This document shows positions 16,050 to 41,500 of a stretch of DNA of 64,000 nt, in pieces. Below the pieces are notes generated by a model. That model did no database searches, was not told the origin of the DNA, and worked only from the letters and a program-made list of their open reading frames with translations. The stretch comes from Prorocentrum cordatum (Eukaryota > Sar > Dinophyceae > Prorocentrales > Prorocentraceae): the NCBI GenBank assembly GCA_963575745.1, contig CAUYUJ010020600.1:10001-74000 (forward strand), given 5' to 3'. Positions within the stretch are counted from its first letter, which is position 1, and every line of letters begins with the position of its first letter. The position numbers were made by a program, and so were the translations under genes.

Positions 16050-16262
16050 AAGGGCGCGTTTGGCAAGCCCCGGCACGAGTCGATCGAGTGGGCGAAAGAG
16101 TGGCCGTTCGCCGAAGTGACTTTTGGTGCGGGCCCACCGGGGTCCCCCGATCGCAGAGTCCGATGCTATGGCAGTGGCTTGCGCGCTTGTGTTTGGCCCC
16201 CCCGCGGCTCCTCAAAAAGCCGAGCACTAAAGGTCACTCTTATCCAGGGTCACTCTTGCGTG

Positions 16263-16406
16263 TAGTCGGGCATGTCCCTCCACAAGAGGAATTTGCAAAA
16301 ATATTCCAAACATGGTCTAGGGGCGATGGTTCTGACTATGTTTGGATATGTTTTGACTCTTTTGGCGTTTCTTCCAAGATCCGCCTGTAGGAGGACATGC
16401 CCGACC
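16263..16406 (+). mobile_element. TCGGGCATGTCC introner-type element
   Basis: TAGTCGGGCATGTCCCTCC at the left is mirrored by GGAGGACATGCCCGACC at the right. The 144-bp body has ATATTCCAAA and GGGGCGATGGTTCT, resembling the intron element at 40758-40928. No recognised exons lie beside this copy, so whether it is spliced is unknown. Confidence 0.8.
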
Positions 16407-16444
16407 CAATGCCAGAAGTGGCCAAGGGCGCCTCTGGCAACCCC

Positions 16445-18359: not shown

Positions 18360-18616
18360 CGATCGAGGCGCGGAGGTGATAAGGGCCACGTTGGGCGCTC
18401 GGGTGGGGCTCTGGTTTTCGGGCCGGCTCTCGGGTTAATTCGGGCCTGCCCCTCTACAGGGGGAAATGTCAAACATTGTGTTTTTGGTTTTAATACGGCT
18501 TGGGGGCGATTTTTCTATTTGAGGTTTTGACGCTTCTTTGCTCAAACAGTAATATGGGGACGATTGTTTATCATTTGTTGACTATGGGTTAACATGTTGT
18601 GTTAAAAGCTATACAC

Positions 18617-19465: not shown

Positions 19466-21080
19466 CCCAACCATACGTAGTTGTGAATACCGCAATTGTG
19501 GATATATTCTTCGGTGGCGCCCCCGGGCCACGAAACGAGTGAGGGGTGTGCCGAAATGGGGGGGTGGAACCGCATGCGAGCGCAGCCACTGGGGCGCTCG
19601 GTGGAGCTCCCTATGGAGCCACGAAACGTGTGAGGGGTGTGCCAGAATGGGGGGTGGAACCGCATGCGGGCGCAGCCACTGGGGCCTTCGGTGGAGCTCC
19701 CTATGGGGCCACGAAACGTGTGAGGGGTATGCCAGAATGGGGGGTGGAACCGCATGCGGGCGCAGCCACTGGGCCTTCGGTGGAGCTCCCTATGGGGCCA
19801 CCGCCCTATGGGGCCACGAAACGTGCTGGGTGGGGCCTTCGGTGGAGCTCCCTATGGGGCCACGAAACGTGGAGGGGTGTGCCAGAATGGGGGGTGGACC
19901 GCATGCGGGCGCAGCCACTGGGGCCTTCGGTGGAGCTCCCTATGGGGCCACGAAACGTGTGAGGGGTGTGCCAGAATGGGGGGTGGAACCGCATGCGGGC
20001 GCAGCCACTGGGGCCTTCGGTGGAGCTCCCTATGGGGCCACGAAGTGTGCGAGGGGTGTGCCAGAATGGGGGGTGGAACCGCATGCGGGCGCAGCCACTG
20101 GGGCCTTCGGTGGAGCTCCCTATGGGGCCACGAAACGTGTGAGGGGTGTGCCAGAATGGGGGGTGGAACCGCATGCGGCGCAGCCACTGGGGCCTTCGGT
20201 GGAGCTCCCTATGGGGCCACGAAACGTGTGAGGGGTGTGCCAGAATGGGGGGTGGAACCGCATGCGGGCGCAGCCACTGGGGCCTTCGGTGGAGCTCCCT
20301 ATGGGGCCACGAAACGTGTGAGGGGTGTGCCAGAATGGGGGGTGGAACCGCATGCGGGCGCAGCCACTGGGGCCTTCGGTGGAGCTCCCTATGGGGCCAC
20401 GAAACGTGTGAGGGGTGTGCCAGAATGGGGGGTGGAACCGCATGCGGGCGCAGCCACTGGGGCCTTCGGTGGAGCTCCCTATGGGGCCACGAAACGTGTG
20501 AGGGGTGTGCCAGAATGGGGGGTGGAACCGCATGCGGGCGCAGCCACTGGGGCCTTCGGTGGAGCTCCCTATGGGGCCACGAAACGTGTGAGGGGTGTGC
20601 CAGAATGGGGGGTGGAACCGCATGCGGGCGCAGCCACTGGGGCCTTCGGTGGAGCTCCCTATGGGGCCACGAAACGTGTGAGGGGTGTGCCAGAATGGGG
20701 GGTGGAACCGCATGCGGGCGCAGCCACTGGGGCCTTCGGTGGAGCTCCCTATGGGGCCACGAAACGTGTGAGGGGTGTGCCAGAATGGGGGGTGGAACCG
20801 CATGCGGGCGCAGCCACTGGGGCCTTCGGTGGAGCTCCCTATGGGGCCACGAAACGTGTGAGGGGTGTGCCAGAATGGGGGGTGGAACCGCATGCGGGCG
20901 CAGCCACTGGGGCCTTCGGTGGAGCTCCCTATGGGGCCACGAAACGTGTGAGGGGTGTGCCAGAATGGGTGTGGGAGGGGGAGGAGGGGGGAGGAAGGGG
21001 AGGAGGAGGAAGGAGGAAGGAGGAAGGAACGCGAGGACCGTCTCTTCAAAACGAGGACCCAACAACACAGGTTGGTTGGG
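19466..21080 (+). mobile_element. CCCAACCA element carrying a 90-bp minisatellite, copy 1
   Basis: Left end CCCAACCATACGTAG with TTGTGAATACC. Right end CGTCTCTTCAAAACGAGG, then GGTTGGTTGGG, the inverse of the left end. Between them lies a 90-bp tandem array (19520-20967) whose units begin GAAACGTGTGAGGGG and end ATGGGGCCAC, followed by a GGA-rich spacer. From 20221 to 20940 eight successive units are identical. 90 is a multiple of three and the unit lacks stops, so long frames on both strands are by-products. Confidence 0.82.
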
Positions 21081-21082
<2 letters not shown>

Positions 21083-21142
<60 letters not shown>

Positions 21143-22929: not shown

Positions 22930-23280
22930 GAGCCCCGGGAAGGGCACTTCAATCGAGAAGAAACAATGTGCACCGGACCGGGGGGATCAACAATAGTTAT
23001 TTTTCAGAAGTGGGAGTTCAACAAAACACAAGAAAAAACGCCCAGACTCCGCCTGCAGGAGGACGTGCCCGACCGAAGTCTGGGTCTGGGAGCCCGTGCG
23101 CGGCCAAAGCTCGCCGTGGCCCGGGAGGCCCCTCCGCGTTTCCGTCGGCGGCGCTCTCCCGGGTGGCGGCGCGACGGCCGTGCGCACCCGCTCCCGGCTT
23201 CGGCAGCGCGGGGGGGAGGACATGGGGGGGGGCCCGACCTTCCCGAGTGCCATAAAATAACACTCCAGATTTATAAACCT
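22930..23280. repeat. Half of an introner end and a 67-bp direct repeat
   Basis: GCCTGCAGGAGGACGTGCCCGACC at about 23051 is the right end of the TCGGGCATGTCC element; its left end is not found. CTCTCCCGGGTGGCGGCGCG and following sequence at 23152-23218 recur at 23330-23396. Confidence 0.6.
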
Positions 23281-24737: not shown

Positions 24738-26525
24738 CCCAAACAGATGCAATTGTGAATAACGCTTTGTGGGTGTCGCTTTCGGTGGGGCTCCTTATGG
24801 GGCCACGAAAGGCGTGCCACGAAATATTGTCCTGGGCGTACGGGACGCATGAGGGCGGTAGCACTGGGGCCTTCGGTGGAGCTCCCTATGGGGCAACGAA
24901 ACGTGTGAGGGGTGTGCCGAAATGGGTGCGGCGCCGCCATGCCAACGCAGTCACTGGGGCCTTCGGTGGAGCTCCCTATGGGGCCACGAAACGTGTGAGG
25001 GGTGTGCCGAGATGGGCGCGGCGCCGCCATGCCAACGCAGCCACTGGGGCCTTCGGTTGAGCTCCCTATGGGGCCACGAAACGTGTGAGGGATGCGCCGA
25101 AATGGGTGCGGCGCCGCCATGCCAACGCAGCCACTGGGGCCTTCGGTAGAGCTCCCTATGTGGCCACGAAACGTGTGAGGGGTGTGCCGAAATCGGCGCG
25201 GCGCCGCCATGCCAACGCAGCCATGGGGCCTTCGGTGGAGCTCCCTATGGGGCCACGAAACGTGTGAGGGGTGTGCCGAAATGGGTGCGGTGCCGCCATG
25301 CCAACGCAGCCATTGGGGCCCTCGGTGGAGCTCCCTATGGGGCCACGAAACGTGTGAGGGGTGTGCCGAAATGGGTGCGGTGCCGCCATGCCAATGCAGC
25401 CACTGGGGCCCTCGGTGGAGCTCCCTATGGGGCCACGAAAACGTGTGAGGGTGTGCCGAACACGGGTGCGGGGCCGGCCATGCGAACGCATCAATTGGGG
25501 GCCTTCGGGGAAGCCTCCCGGCCCCCGATTTGTGGCCACGAAACGTGCGAGGGGTGCTGTGCCGAATGGGTGCGGGCCCGCCACGCCCCAAACCAGCCAA
25601 TGGGGCCTTCGGTGTAGCTCCATATGGGGCCACAAACGGTGCCAGGGATGTGCCGAAATGGGTTGCGCGCCGCCATGCCAAAGCAGCCACCTGGAGGCCT
25701 TCGTGGAGCTCCATGGGGGCCACGAAACGTGTGAGGGATTGTGCCGACATGGTTGCCGGCGCCCCATGCCAAACGCAGCCACTGGGGGTCTCTTTTCGGT
25801 GGAGCTCACCATGGGGCCACGAAGCGTGTGAGGGGCGTGCCGGAAATGGGTGCGGCGCCCGCATGCCATCGCAGCCACGCGGGCCGTCGGTTGGAGCCCC
25901 TATGCGGCCACGCAAACGTGTGATGGGGTTGTGCCGAAATTGGTCTTCCGCTCGCCATGCCAACGCAGCCCACTGGGGCCTTCGGTGGAGGCTCCCTATG
26001 GGACACGAAAACGTGTGAGGGGTGTGCCAAATGGGCGCCCTCCCCCCCCCCCCGGCGGCCGCCATGCCAACGCAGCCAATTGGGCCTTCGGGGAGCTCCC
26101 TATGGGGCCACGAAACGTGGTGAGGGGTGTGCCAAATTTGGGCGCCGCAGCGTGCCATTGCCAACGCAGCCACTGGGGCCTTCGGTGGAGCTCCCTATGG
26201 GGCCACGAAACGTGTGAGGGGTGTGCCGAAATGGGCGCGGCGCCGCCATGCGAACGCAGCCACTGGGGCCTTCGGTGGAGCTCCCTATGGGGCCACGAAA
26301 CGTGTGAGGGGTGTGCCGAAATGGGTGCGGCGCCGCCATGCCAACGCAGCCACTGGGGCCTTCGGTGGAGCTCCCTATGGGGCCACGAAACGTGTGAGGG
26401 GTGTGCCGTGATAGTGGGAGGAGGGAGGAGGGAGGGGGGAGATGGCGGAGGAGGAGGAAGGAAGGAGAGGAGACGCGGGGCACCGTCTCTTCAAAACGAG
26501 GACCCAACACCACAGGATGGTTGGG
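24738..26525 (+). mobile_element. CCCAACCA element carrying a 90-bp minisatellite, copy 2
   Basis: Left end GACCCAAACAGATGC with TTGTGAATAACGC. Right end CCGTCTCTTCAAAACGAGG, then ATGGTTGGG. The array (about 24790-26410) holds some 18 diverged units that differ from copy 1 in the middle (GCGGCGCCGCCATGCCAACG), with several indels around 25440-26050. Same architecture, older array. Confidence 0.82.
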
Positions 26526-29306: not shown

Positions 29307-30104
29307 CCCAACCATATGCAGTCGTGGGCACCATCGTTGTATGCACCGCGTTCGGTGGAGCTCCCCATGGGGCCACGAACTGTATAAGGGGTGTGCCAAA
29401 ATGGGTGTGGCGGCCGCATGCGAGCGCTGGCATCTGGGCCTTCGGTGGAGCTGCCTATGGGGCCACGAAGCGTGTGTGAGGGTTTGCCAACATGGGTGCG
29501 GCGGGCGCATGCGAGCGCTGGCATTTGGGCCTTCGGTGGAGCTTCCTACGGGGCAACGAAACTTGCGAGGGGTGTGCCACAATGGGTACGACGGCTGCAT
29601 ATGAGCGCTGGCATTTGGGCCTTCGGTAGGCCTGCCTATGGGGCCACGAAGCGTGTGTGAGGGTTTGCCAAAATCGGTGCGCCGGGCGCATGCCAGCGCT
29701 GGCGTTTGGGCCTTCGGTGGAGCTCCCTATGGGGCCACGAAACGTGTGAAGGGTGTGCCACATGGGTGCGGTCGGACCATGCGAGCGCTGGCGCTTGGGC
29801 CTGCGGCAGAGCTCCATATGGGGCCATGAAACGTGTGAGGCGTGTGCCAAAACGGATGCGGCGGGCGCACGCGAGCGCTGGCATTTGGGCCTCCAGTGGG
29901 GCTCCATATGGGGCCACGAAACGTGTGAGGGGTGTGCCAAAGTGAGGGGGGTGACGGGAGAAGGGAGGAGGGGGAGGAGGAGAAGGATAGAGGAGGAGAA
30001 GGAGGAGGAGGAGGAGGAAAAGGTGAAGGAGGAGAAGGAGGAGGAGGAGGAGAGGAGGAGACGCGGGGATCTCTCTTCAAAACGAGCACCACAGGATGGT
30101 TGGG
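29307..30104 (+). mobile_element. CCCAACCA element carrying a 90-bp minisatellite, copy 3
   Basis: Left end CCCAACCATATGCAGTCGTG. Right end CTCTCTTCAAAACGAGCACC, then ATGGTTGGG. About seven array units (29355-29945) carry GAGCGCTGGCATTTGGGCC in place of the middle of the copy 1 unit. A GGA spacer precedes the right end, as in the other copies. Confidence 0.82.
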
Positions 30105-33085: not shown

Positions 33086-33164
33086 GGACCCGGCTCGATG
33101 CCGCGCCGCCGCTCGCCCATGGCGCGGCGGGCCCGCTGGTGGACCGCCGCCTGCCCAGCCTCAG
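33086..33164 (+). CDS. Exon 1 (left edge uncertain), N-terminal region
   Basis: Reads as [20 protein letters not shown] after a possible CAG acceptor at 33085. It joins the next exon in phase (2 nt + 1 nt). No start codon is visible in frame, so an earlier exon is likely. The splice point is ambiguous: a donor 12 bases earlier (GCCCAG) also keeps the frame. Confidence 0.45.
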
Positions 33165-36100
33165 GTCGGGCATGTCCCTCTGCAGGAGGGGATTCAAGAA
33201 TAGCTTCGTATTCCAAAAATACAGAGAGAAGGGGAGAAACAATGAAACAAAAGCCTGGGGGCGATGTTCGATTTGCTGGACAATGTTTGACAGGGCTGGG
33301 CCTAAACGCTGTGTTGCTGGGCTTCGGCTGTGTTTTGTGCTTCGCTTTGGCAGGGAGTGGCACAGGAGGACAGCCAGAGCAAAACGACCAACAAGACAAA
33401 ACCAAAACACGAAAAAGAACGCTTAGGTCCAGACTTGATTTCTTAATATGAAGGCCTGACGGCCGGTGCCGCCGACCCTGCAAGTCACCAACGACCAGGA
33501 GGGGGAGGAGGAGGAGGAGGAGAAGGAGGAGGAGGCAGAGGCGGAGATAAGGAGGAGGCGAAGAGGCGGAGGAGGAGGAGGAGGAGGAGAAGGAGGAGGA
33601 GGAGGAGGAGGAGGCGGAGATAAGGAGGAGGCGGAGGAGGAGGAGGAGGAGGAGGAAAAGGGCTCCCCCCTCCAAAGCTGTCCTGTGGGGGGGCCGTGCC
33701 CGACCTGAGTCCGGCCTTCGCCGCGGCGCCCGTGCTCGTGGCCCTCCCGGGCCGCCGTGGCGCTCTGCGCCTCTGCTGGGGCACGCTGCCCGCCGCGGGC
33801 GCCCGCGCCGCGCCCGCGCCGCGGCGCCCCGGCGCCCGGCGGGGGGCGGCGCGGGCCGCAGCCGCGCCGCCCGACGGCGAGCTCCCGAGCAGGTCCGAGG
33901 AGGAACCGCAGGCACGAGATCCCAGACATCCAACGCATTGAAGAGATCAAGACGGAGGTTTTCCCAATTTTCGGCCTCTAGGGGCCTCGGGACCGTCACA
34001 AAACGACTCAGGATGAAAAACCGGTCCCGGGGAAGGGGTCCAGACTTCTGGGGGTCGACGTCATAAAAAATCATGACGTCTGGGGTCTGGGATCGCGTCG
34101 TGACAAACTCCAGACGGGAGGCTTCTGGCCGTGTTCGGCCCCCGGGGGGCCCTCGCCGGGCCTCGGGAGCGCAAAGAAACGACTCAGGACGAGAAACCGG
34201 TCCCGGAGAAAGGGTCGGGACTTCCAAGGACAGCGACCTGAAAAGATCAGGACGTCGCATGTCTGGGACCCAGACATCTGTCGTGTCTAAAAGATCGTGG
34301 CAGAGGTTTTGCATCGTTGTCGGGATGAGAAACCGGTCGCGGGGAAGTGGTCGAGAGGTCGGGGGCCCGCGTCTCGAAGAAATCGAGACGCCGGATGTCT
34401 GGGAAAGGGCCCAGACCCCCACGCGCTACGACAAAAAAAAGATGGGGTCAATGCAAACGGGGGTCAGTCAGAGCGCCGGATCTTGCAGGATCCTGCAGAG
34501 GGGCTTGGGTGCGGGATGCTGCAGGATCCTGCTGCCTGATCTTGCAATGCCCGTCTGAACCGGGTCTGAATTGACCCGGGTCAGAAGATCCTTGATCCGA
34601 GGAGGAATGGGCCCATACCGACGCGCGCGTTGCGACAAAAGTCACGACGGGAAGTCTTTCGCTATTTTTTCTGCCTCTGGGGGCCATTGCCGGGCCTCGG
34701 GAGCGTCAAAGAACGGCTCAGCATGAAACACCGGTCCCAGGGAAGGGGTCCACACCTTTGGGGTCCAGACATGACGTCGGGGGTTTGGGTCAGAAGCCTC
34801 GGAAGTCCGCCGTCCTGCGGAGAAGTTTTCTGAGCCTTCCCCGAAGACCCAGAACACCTCTCAGAAGGCGCGAGGGCTTCTGAGAAGCCCAGCCGCCTTC
34901 TGAGAAGGCCGTCTCATTTTCACTTGCCCCCCTCGCTCGTCGCCGAGATACCAGGGGTGCCCTCGTGTCCTGTGTCTCGCGACCCATGCCCCCTACACTG
35001 CTATGGCAATATGGCTCTCGGAAGGGTCTTGTGTCCTCTCGCGTGTCTTGTTCAATCAAGTCCGACTGTACCCGTGCCTCGTTCTTGCCTGGCAGGCCTT
35101 CGTCACCACGGCTGGATTCGCTTCAGCTTTTCGTTTTCTGGTCAGAAGGCGATCCAGGAGAGGTTCGGGGAGTACTTAGCGGTATCGATATTGCGGTGGT
35201 TCTGCAGTCTCGGGATGCGTTCCAGCAGCTGCGCCTCGTCGAGAGGCGTCCCGAGGTGCCCAGATCGTCCCGAGTGGCCGCCAGTGACTCGAGCCATGCC
35301 TCGAATACACCCGCCTCCTCTCAGAGGAGGAGCAGGTACCGATACCGCCGCTGCCCTTCCCCGGTTGTGCCTGTGTGGGCCTCCTGGGGCGGCTGGGTCC
35401 GCTTCGGCTTCCTGCTCAGCACGCGCCCCAGGAGAGGTCCGGGGAGAGCTGTACATCCCCAGACCCCCGACGTCATGATTTTTTCATGACGTCGATCCCC
35501 TGATGGTCTGGACCCATTCCCCGGGACCGGTTTCTCATCCTCAGTTGTTTTTTGCCGGTCCCGAAGCCCGGCCTCCAGGGGCCGAAAGGAGCGAGAAACC
35601 TCCCGCCATGATTTTCCCACGCCTCGAGGGGCGTCTGGGCATTTATGTCGGCATTTCCTCGCTGGCCCCAGCAGGGGCGACCTGGCGATCGCGGAGCTCC
35701 TCCTCGGGGCCTACGACGCCGACGGCGACGGCGTGCTGAGCGCCGCAGAGGCTGCCGAGCTCGCGCTGGACGCGGGGCAGGGCGGCGCCGGCCCCGCGGA
35801 GGGCCCCCTGGCGGTGCTGTCCGCGCTGGGCAGCGGGGCCCGCCTCTCCAAGGAGGGCCTGCTCTCCATGTACGCCGGCAGATCGGAGGACCGGCACCGT
35901 GCATCAGAGCCCCGAATCATGAGGGTATATAACTCGGGTCCGGGCCAACTCGGACTCGTGTTGCGGCATATTCCGGACCCGAGTGACCCCGGGCCTGAGC
36001 TTCCCCGGATTAGTCGGGCGTCCAGAGCCCCAAATCATGAGGGGTAATTCTGGTCAGGGCTAACTCGGGTTCCTTTCCCGGGAATCCCAACCCGAGTTAC

Positions 36101-38574: not shown

Positions 38575-41500
38575 AGGGAAGGGGTCGAGATTTCATGGGG
38601 GTCGACGTTACGAACAAATCATTACGTCGGGGGTCGGTGACCGACCCCTGATCCCCTTCCGTATCCTTACGCATCGATTTTTATACAGCGAGACAACAAC
38701 ACGTTTGGCGTTCCGCGCGGATTTCTTGGATCCGCGCCGGGCTCTCCCCGGCGACGCCTCCAGCGCCGCCCCCGGCGCGCTCCGCACGCCAGGGACGAGG
38801 TGTCCAGCGCAGTTCCAAGAAATCCATGCGGAGCGCCAAAAGTTTATGTTTACGCCGTGCGTATGCTTATGTTTTATTTGTATTCGTATTTTTTCTTATT
38901 ATTATTATTATTATTATTATTAGTTTTCTTATTCTTCTTATTATTATTATCATTATAAGTATTGGTAGTATGTGTCTTAGTATTCGTATTATTCTTATTA
39001 TTATTCTTCTTATTATTCTTCTTCGTCGTATTATTACTATTATTCTTATTATCCTGCTTCTTCTTCTTCTTATGATTAGTATGCTTATTCTTCTTAGTAC
39101 AAGAATTAGTATCAGCATCACTCTTACAATGATATCGTTAGTAGTACTACTATTACTATCATCCGTAAGGGTTTCGCCCCCTGTCGCCGGCACCCTGTCT
39201 CGGAGAATGGGAAATGCAGCAGCGAAATCTTGAGGCCTTGGCGCCACCGTGAAGCAGTGTCGGGACTTCACGCGAAGACGATGAGTAATCGGCAGGACAC
39301 ATTGGGATGTGGATGGTAGTGTTGAATTCGATGGTGTACTTCCATGGTTTACGGCTTCGGATGTGCGACTCGTGCGTAACGTGCGAGGGTTTATTGCTTC
39401 GGGGTCCCAAACATAACGTAAGCTACGCAAATGTATGGCTTCGAAGACGCGAACATTGAGTAATTTACGTACGCAGGTTGATGGCTTCGGACACGCTATT
39501 ATGGTATAATTTTCGAGGGTGTATGGCTTCGGGTTGCAAAATTGCATCACTTACGCGGGTTCATGTCTTCGGAGACGCGAACATCATGTAATTTTCGACG
39601 GTTTATAGCTTCGGGGACGCGAGTACAGCGTGAGTTACAAGCGTTTGTGGCTTCGGGCATGCAAGCATTACGTAATTTAAACAACGTTTATGTCGTAGGG
39701 GATACGAATACGGCGTGTATTGCGAAGGTGGCTTCGGGGACGCGAAAGTTGTGTAATTCGCGAGGGTGCATGGCTTCGGGGACGCGAATACTGTGTATTT
39801 TAAAAGGGTTTATGGCCTCGGGGGCGCGACTTAAATATGTTTGTACGTGTCCCACGCCCCCCCTGAAATCCTGATACCCTTCCTAGGAGGTGCTAACCAG
39901 AGTGTTCTTCGGTTCCCCCCCCCCCGCGCGGTCTACAACAAGGAAGAGTAGGCAACAAGAAGCAGAACTGTAACAGTAGAAACTGGAAACTGGAACTGGT
40001 GCCGGCAACAGAAAACCCTCATCCTACAGCCTGGTGGCCCCACAGGGGGCCGGCAGATTCCTCCTCGTCGTTTTCTTCTTCTTGTCACCCAGACCCCCAC
40101 CATGCCAGCGCCCCAGTTGGGGATGCACCCCTCGGAGCCCGAAGGAAACAGCCTGCATCCCCATCTAGAGGGGCGTAAGTCGGCCAGGGGCCCGGGCCAC
40201 GCCCGTGCTTAGAGGAGCTGCTCCGGCACTGCGAGGGCGCCCTCGCCCCGCGGGTGGACTCCCTGGCGACCTTCGGCGCCATGGCCGTGGTGACCGTGCG
40301 CCTCGGGCGCGCGCTGCGGCGAAGGTTGTACGCCGGGCTGTCGAGGGAGGCCGCAGGCTCGGGGGCCCCCAGACGGGGTGGTGACCACACCGTGCGGTGA
40401 GTCGGTGGGGATTCGGGGTCACCCCACGGTTGGGGGACTCCAGTCCCTCTCCGAGGACGTCTCGGGCGACAGGGGCCTCCAGGGTCCCAAGACCGTGCGT
40501 TGACGGTCCGTGCGGGGAGGTCTTGGGGGATTTCGAGGTCACCTCACGGTCTGTCACCGCACCGCTTCGGGACTCCAAACAGGCAGCGGCAGGTGGGTGC
40601 TGCAGGAGGTGGGGGTCGGGCCCACCCGCGTGCGCGTCGGGTGGCTGTTCGCCGGGCTCGACGAGCGGGCGGACCCGCGGACCTGCGCGCTGCAGTTCGT
40701 GGACGTGGCGGGAGAGGCGAGGGCTGCGCTGGAGAGACACGCCGGGAGGGTGACGCGTAAGTCGGGCATGTCCGTCTACAGGAGGAATATCCCAAAATAG
40801 TATTTAAAAATATCTGGGGACGATGTTTCTAGTTTCTAGTATCTATTTGCCTATTCCTGGAGATGGTTTGACGATTTGTTTGATGTTGTGCCCAAAATCC
40901 GCTTGCAGGGGGACATGCCCGACCTAAGGTGACGCGGCTGCCGGAGCCGGAGGAGGGCGTCGGCGCCGCGCAGGCGCCGTACAGCTTGCTGGGGGCGCTC
41001 AGCAGCCTGGCGGGCACGCTGGGCGTGGCGCTGCCTTGGCAGAGGGACGCCGCGGGGCCTCCGCGCCAGGCCGCGGTGGCCGAGGAGAGGGCGGCCGCAA
41101 TGAGGGACGAGGCGCGCAGGGCACTGGTGCCGATGCTGCAGCGCCTGCAGGGCATGCAGGCCAAGAAGGAGGAGCAGGACACCTCCGAGGACGACGTCAG
41201 CAGAGCGTACAAGAGCGTCAAGGACTTCAAGGTGCTCGCCAGGGGCGACCCCGCCTTCGTCGACATGTCGGACCTGCGCGGGTGCCCGGAGATCCGCAAG
41301 AAGCTGGCCGAGCTGGTCGAGGTCCAGGGGGCGCTAATTAAATATGGTCCTGGCCCAACGCGCCCCCCGCTTGTCCCTCCATTCTGACACCCCGGGAGCA
41401 CTAAGGGCCTCGTGAAGGGTGCTCTGGAGGCCGTGGGGGGTTCCTTGGGAACGCCTGCGACTCCACAGGCCAGGGAAACCTCTGGCAACAACACCCTCTC

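Follow-up and report, generated by a model that had tools for sequence, protein, structure and literature searches.

The window analysed here, a stretch of 64,000 nucleotides from the dinoflagellate Prorocentrum cordatum to which all plain coordinates below refer, contains a DNA element with terminal inverted repeats (TIRs), and the insertion of this element into a coding exon, with duplication of 8 bp of target, is well supported. The family to which the element belongs is large and diverse and consists of short, nonautonomous DNA transposons of the cut-and-paste type, with the anatomy of a MITE. Judging from reading frames and splice signals, the insertion is furthermore likely to be an intron.

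The element and its host exon

The MITE-like, nonautonomous element is 171 nt long and lies at 40757-40927 on the forward strand, as placed by the register of its family, by a DNA search of its own genome and by an nhmmer profile, and it is too short to contain a transposase. The left TIR, or A end, is GTAAGTCGGGCATGTCC (40757-40773, forward strand; family consensus TTAAGTCGGGCATGTCC) and matches the reverse complement of the right TIR, or B end (TTAGGTCGGGCATGTCC; 40911-40927, reverse strand), at 15 of 17 positions. A preliminary description, made from the letters alone, had pointed to inverted ends built on the 12-base core TCGGGCATGTCC, and this core is indeed present at 40762-40773, with its reverse complement at 40911-40922, the inverted ends reaching 17 nt in all. 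The same description had reported the 8-mer GTGACGCG at both edges as a perfect 8-bp duplication. The 8-mer does occur at 40750-40757 and 40929-40936 and the length of 8 bp agrees with the family, but the register of the family lies one base to the left, so that the target site duplication reads GGTGACGC at 40749-40756 and again at 40928-40935. The identical direct repeat is 9 bp in this copy (GGTGACGCG, 40749-40757 and 40928-40936), because the usual first base of the element, T, is here a G. The profile, built from 49 copies with the matches of the window left out, recovers 40757-40927, and in the DNA search 37 of 39 other matches span the query from base 1-4 to base 167-171. The insertion had also been called a near-intact record, which is appropriate for its duplication but not for its interior, since the window copy is only 74-78% identical to each of the 39 other scored matches (identity was scored for 40 of 2738 candidates, self included).

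The flanks of the element are strongly coding. The upstream coding stretch of the host gene runs on the forward strand over 40583-40749, its start after AAACAG| being a probable one read by eye, and the downstream stretch over 40929-41336 on the same strand, with a presumed end. GC by codon position is 0.81/0.54/0.94 upstream (40591-40748) and 0.74/0.48/0.96 downstream (40929-41330) with no stops in either, while the upstream frame, if read on unspliced, meets a stop inside the element. Removal of 179 nt, or of any length equal to it modulo 3, joins the two frames, and the earlier claim that removal restores the coding frame thus holds good. Since the flanks are strongly coding and the 179-nt removal joins their frames, the element interrupts one formerly continuous coding exon, and insertion into an exon is nearly certain. 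The sequence expected of the uninterrupted site, with the element removed, is ...CGGGAGGGTGACGCGGCTG....

The host gene is single-copy in the assembly, where its only two matches are its own two exon parts, and the search of the genome against itself found no empty allele of the locus. A protein search with the host fragment found no relative among candidates limited to 0.55-1.75 times its 191 aa, and a Pfam search with this fragment, fragments of the C281 locus described below and four further open reading frames from the window gave nothing at or above the curated cut-off. Further upstream, 40357-40582 is by eye a probable preceding intron of the host gene, with a GC donor, an AAACAG|G acceptor and CAG|GC at both ends.

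Family size, target site and exonic copies

The assembly searched comprises 21,875 contigs with 4,128,499,153 bases. In it the 12-base core forms exact pairs spaced by 121-151 nt at 2293 places and by 60-90 nt at a further 99. The reversed control pattern occurs at 0 places genome-wide, and with 2293 exact pairs against none the inverted ends are not due to chance. If only the window is considered, 13 matches to the 12-base end with at most 2 mismatches stand against 9.03 expected, which is not a significant over-representation. The exact pairs make up only a small fraction of the family, since exact 17-base termini number 23,035 altogether (TTAAG- 4279, GTAAG- 628, TTAGG- 17,103 and GTAGG- 1025). 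Across the assembly TTAGG-type ends outnumber those of the TTAAG type fourfold, and relatives with two B-type ends, or more variable A ends, may be the cause of this excess.

The properties of the family were read from a sample consisting of 49 of the 50 listed short-class places (99 counted), the 50 listed long-class places (2293 counted) and both window copies, which with one extra span in L051 gave 102 pairs, 100 of them distinct. Flank matching at every offset in these 100 copies has a single answer, namely an 8-base duplication set five bases away from the core at either end. The duplication is perfect in 23 copies and has at most one mismatch in 43, where 500 shuffles of the right flanks gave on average 0.67 and never more than 4 copies with at most one mismatch, and the match per position is 0.64-0.80 against 0.26-0.49 expected, with background level just outside the 8 bases. 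A genome search for inverted end pairs with 8-bp duplications had been proposed as a check on the preliminary description, and its outcome, both in number of pairs and in duplication length, is favourable. The preferred target, taken from the 43 best duplications, is NNCTAGNN, whose four central positions are C in 28, T in 26, A in 31 and G in 35 of these copies. Core-to-core length is 84-165 nt in 99 of the 100 copies and 400 nt in one, the sampling patterns having admitted 84-114 and 145-175 nt only, and the long size class has a consensus of 159 nt, TTAAGTCGGGCATGTCC...GGACATGCCCGACCTAA, derived from 51 copies of 139-165 nt. The first element base is T in 76 copies and G in 16.

The family is accordingly short, bounded by TIRs, flanked by a target duplication of fixed length, high in copy number and free of transposase, which are the features of a MITE. 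It is also, like introners, repeated at many loci of one genome, and it bears the marks of DNA transposition (TIR and/or target duplication) that are absent from some published introner families. MITEs of the hAT and P superfamilies are likewise short and non-coding, with TIRs and an 8-bp duplication, and the target NNCTAGNN resembles the P-element site, GGCCAGAC, and the Buster-type hAT site, NNNTANNN. The element ends, however, presumably match neither hAT nor P termini, and no transposase is linked to the family. In the papers searched in full text, the core and its complement turned up in one unrelated paper.

Several further repeats were observed in the window. A second full-length copy of the family lies at 16261-16409 between flanks that are not recognisably coding, and its target duplication is gone (6 of 8 positions mismatched). 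Degenerate or partial copies found by nhmmer at 33161-33312, 18435-18539 and 23019-23077 bring the total in the window to about five. A tandemly repeated 90-bp unit, CCACTGGGGCCTTCGGTGGAGCTCCCTATGGGGCCACGAAACGTGTGAGGGG and so on, forms arrays at 19489-21106, 24764-25512, 26073-26462 and 29327-29994; these are spread over 10 kb, and several neighbouring 300-nt copies are 100% identical to the reference copy.

Insertion of the family into coding exons, with 8 bp duplicated, is demonstrated at the level of compared sequences by a second exonic copy, L078 (C281:421527-421677), which interrupts a multigene family. Paralogues 65-76% identical were found in the same genome and are unbroken through the insertion point; C14889, C16044, C14383 and C3120 cover the whole 170-residue query and C14397 covers residues 2-170. 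The junctions of four of the five (C14889, C16044, C14397 and C3120) read continuously, for example GVEVFETHGHVGLPDKW with TTCGAGAC|CCACGG, and it is the comparison of the C281 copy with these four uninterrupted junctions that establishes exonic insertion. The tandem gene twin of L078, L105 (C281:409180-409365), is interrupted by an element at the identical base, likewise with this duplication, the junction of both being TACGAGAC-element-GACG(G/A)GACCCA.

At C281 the element ends put TAA codons in frame, and among nearby GT/GC/GA donors and AG acceptors neither copy has a message-restoring or an AG|G solution. To say that the locus lacks any usable splice sites would be too strong, as the scan gives one in-frame stop-free pair in L078 (AG|A, four codons dropped) and four in L105 (all AG|A, one to five codons dropped). 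The locus speaks against automatic intron birth. Nor were the twins, which at first sight suggested strong constraint on the exons around a rapidly changing element, retained as proof of splicing, because their upstream exons are near-identical in DNA (133 of 135 bases) and their element interiors are no closer than random pairs (67% alike against a random-pair mean of 71%, rank 1042 of 1326). Downstream, 118 of 131 bases agree between the twins, and the 12 differences within the 40 codons compared comprise one synonymous change and 11 in codons with a changed residue (8 residues). Conversion, independent insertion and element replacement are possible origins of the twin elements.

A preference for exons is not apparent. 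Four settings of a test for coding flanks in matching frames were passed by 2, 2, 3 and 3 of the 100 copies, against 1.04, 0.44, 0.92 and 0.49 for shuffled partners, and random points in the same loci had coding flanks in 78, 78 and 62 of 990 cases at the 60-, 90- and 120-nt settings. The first codon model used was contaminated by CCT repeats, and the second drew part of its training set from the exons of the window and C281, for which its scores are circular. The window copy passes always, and alone in a stricter setting, while L078, L044 and L047 pass in some. L047, which passed two of the four settings, was rejected as low-complexity CTG/CTC sequence, and so were L072 and L067, which appeared non-coding on reading; L039 has an open frame but is ambiguous. 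Two sampled copies, those of the window and of C281, are thus clearly coding on both sides, and L044 is plausible. The latter has a GC-AG|G pair with both sites in the duplication and a restored frame (CGCAG|GCC...TGCAG|GTG), and although its coding status is weaker it could be a second intron. A bias toward genes is reported for some introner families; as for exons, the family here is not enriched in them (3 of 100 copies against 62 of 990 random points, Fisher p = 0.27). Birth of an intron by a transposon-like introner, as originally described, is consequently sustained as regards a TIR insertion into an exon with an 8-bp duplication, but not as regards a dedicated introner family, with only 2-3 of 100 copies having coding flanks; the family is a MITE that may at most be an occasional introner.

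Splicing of the window copy and competing readings

For splicing of the window insertion we consider two candidate introns on the forward strand, one of 179 nt at 40750-40928 (GTGACG...CCTAAG|G), the removal of which would restore the pre-insertion message exactly, and one of 152 nt at 40757-40908 (GTAAGT...TTGCAG|G), the removal of which would leave 27 nt (9 codons, GHARPKVTR) in frame. The element, presumably moved by a transposase encoded elsewhere, inserted into a continuous coding exon and duplicated its 8-bp target. In the former case the spliceosome would remove 40750-40928 from the pre-mRNA. The second and third bases of the left duplication would then serve as the GT donor, while the last A of the element and the G that opens the right duplication would form the AG acceptor, and after it would come the G that dinoflagellate acceptors prefer. 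The earlier assignment of the donor to the duplication is thereby kept, but the acceptor would not belong wholly to the element, as had been stated. The paired 17-nt ends could in addition, on the strength of the predicted fold, bring both splice sites together in the RNA.

A scan near the element for GT/GC/GA donors and AG acceptors forming in-frame, stop-free pairs gave 11 pairs for the window copy, 8 of them AG|G, and only the 179-nt intron returns the uninterrupted sequence, which the other ten, the 152-nt intron included, do not. Because of these ten alternatives our confidence in both candidate introns was lowered very slightly and the remaining pairs were admitted as a reading of their own. 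The legality of the 179-nt sites is only modest evidence, since of the 100 copies (window copy included) 18 have sites for exact removal, G(T/C/A)-AG|G, in the sense orientation and 11 in the antisense one, or 6 in sense if GT-AG|G is demanded; among the 43 copies with good duplications the figures are 7, 7 and 2. We count the intact host frame as the stronger argument for splicing. GC3 of the host flanks is 0.953 and there is no stop in 191 codons, whereas in a simulation with 15% neutral change GC3 falls to about 0.85 and the frame stays free of stops with a probability of 0.11. This argues against decay only if the insertion is old, however, and its age is uncertain, since identity to consensus does not correlate with mismatches in the duplication (n = 51, rho 0.07, p 0.63), for which reason divergence was rejected as a clock for individual copies.

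As a donor, the GTGACG of the 179-nt intron is inferior to the GTAAGT that lies seven bases further on, and the sites of the 152-nt intron, both of which are closer to the general spliceosome consensus, are the most orthodox of the 11 pairs. The same insertion might therefore be spliced at the donor at 40757 and the acceptor ending at 40908, in which case the message would keep 19 nt of the element and the second duplication as a nine-codon in-frame insertion. The frame does remain open across the retained 27 nt, and the window copy departs from the family consensus towards better sites both at the donor (T1 to G) and at the acceptor (CTGTAG to TTGCAG). A first-base G is furthermore found at 628 of 4907 A-type termini (12.8%) and 1025 of 18128 B-type termini (5.7%), and in the 100-copy sample at 16 A ends against 4 B ends (Fisher p = 0.008). 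As G1 is also numerous at B-type ends it is no clear mark of splicing, and with no more than a two-fold difference in the genome counts, a built-in GTAAGT donor was rejected as a hallmark of the A end. Nine residues would moreover be added to the protein, although a published introner with both sites in the element adds 12 nt (parts of PMC9860276 on such introners). A weak donor is in any case no bar to the 179-nt intron, since in the P. cordatum gene models, as given in passages of PMC10666404, GC donors (51.4%) are commoner than GT (24.7%) and GA are about equal to it (23.8%), while 79.7% of acceptors are AGG. On balance we regard exact removal of 40750-40928 as having nearly an even chance, and splicing of the 152-nt intron as rather unlikely. 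That the insertion is spliced at another of the in-frame pairs, for instance with a GTCTAC or GCATGT donor inside the element or an upstream GC donor, and with a few codons changed, appears highly improbable, for although nine such pairs are stop-free in the scanned zone, none exactly restores the message and chance in an open GC-rich frame accounts for them.

It is also conceivable, if unlikely, that the MITE disrupts the gene and is not efficiently spliced, the gene copy being on its way to loss or the allele having been hit recently. The absence of exon enrichment agrees with this, as do both C281 copies, which lie in coding exons with no solution of the AG|G or message-restoring kind and are followed by downstream stretches whose differences mostly change residues. 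The window copy, however, has a message-restoring AG|G solution, and both of its flanks retain an extreme codon bias and frames that are intact. Splicing may occur even at C281, given that an acceptor usage of 79.7% AGG makes AG|A possible in this lineage (PMC10666404, in part). With 9.8 introns per gene in P. cordatum, according to the same passages, the element could in principle have been placed later into or instead of an intron already present at the site, but this is scarcely credible, since the candidate intron is nothing but the element and one duplication, and the duplication extends into both coding flanks. Finally, we think it quite doubtful that a very large MITE family is here, in a bloom-forming dinoflagellate, becoming an introner, in which case one family would hold both published routes of intron birth and the step between them. 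Most copies start with TTAAGT, but about one in eight A ends has G first and would hence offer a ready GTAAGT donor facing a built-in YAG|G acceptor, and other copies would borrow both sites from the duplication.

Relation to known introners

Intron making by elements with TIRs and target duplications is already known, and the present family is a new example of such elements. In Symbiodinium microadriaticum the donor is provided by a 4-bp duplication (Gozashti et al. 2022, PMC9860276, in the parts on TIR introners), and the introners of this and other dinoflagellates (also Roy et al. 2023, as summarised in passages of the review PMC11453091) are, like the family here, short TIR elements with target duplications. 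The S. microadriaticum type, with its donor from the duplication, its acceptor from the element and intron birth by DNA transposition, corresponds to what is proposed here, but the duplication in that example is 4 bp against 8 bp, and few copies here are candidate introns. Aureococcus sp. introners carry both sites and add codons, from 4 bp of element and 8 bp of duplication (PMC9860276, legend to Fig. 2F); an 8-bp duplication, both sites carried and codons added are also what the 152-nt intron would involve, although the addition is 12 nt against 27 nt and the alga is unrelated. Introners with inverted and direct repeats have been described from Amoebophrya (Farhat et al. 2021, PMC7789003, in part), and inverted-repeat introner elements are enriched in the introns of P. 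cordatum itself (Dougan et al. 2023, PMC10666404, in part). The latter have direct repeats close to the intron ends as well as inverted repeats, 8-20 nt in length, but are defined by pattern within annotated introns and with direct repeats of 3-5 nt; neither a family nor an 8-bp duplication nor a target consensus is described in these passages of the paper. Among the papers listed on introners in dinoflagellates, Prorocentrum, target site duplication and intron gain, no title or abstract start names the present family.

If it is spliced, the window insertion would show cleanly how a defined transposon family gives birth to an intron, and this in a lineage that is among the richest in introns. 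The family, with its ends, 8-bp duplication, NNCTAGNN target and thousands of copies, some of them exonic and one with uninterrupted paralogues, offers tangible material for determining how many of the insertions into exons turn into introns and which of them fail, a question beyond the design of surveys that take annotated introns as their starting point.
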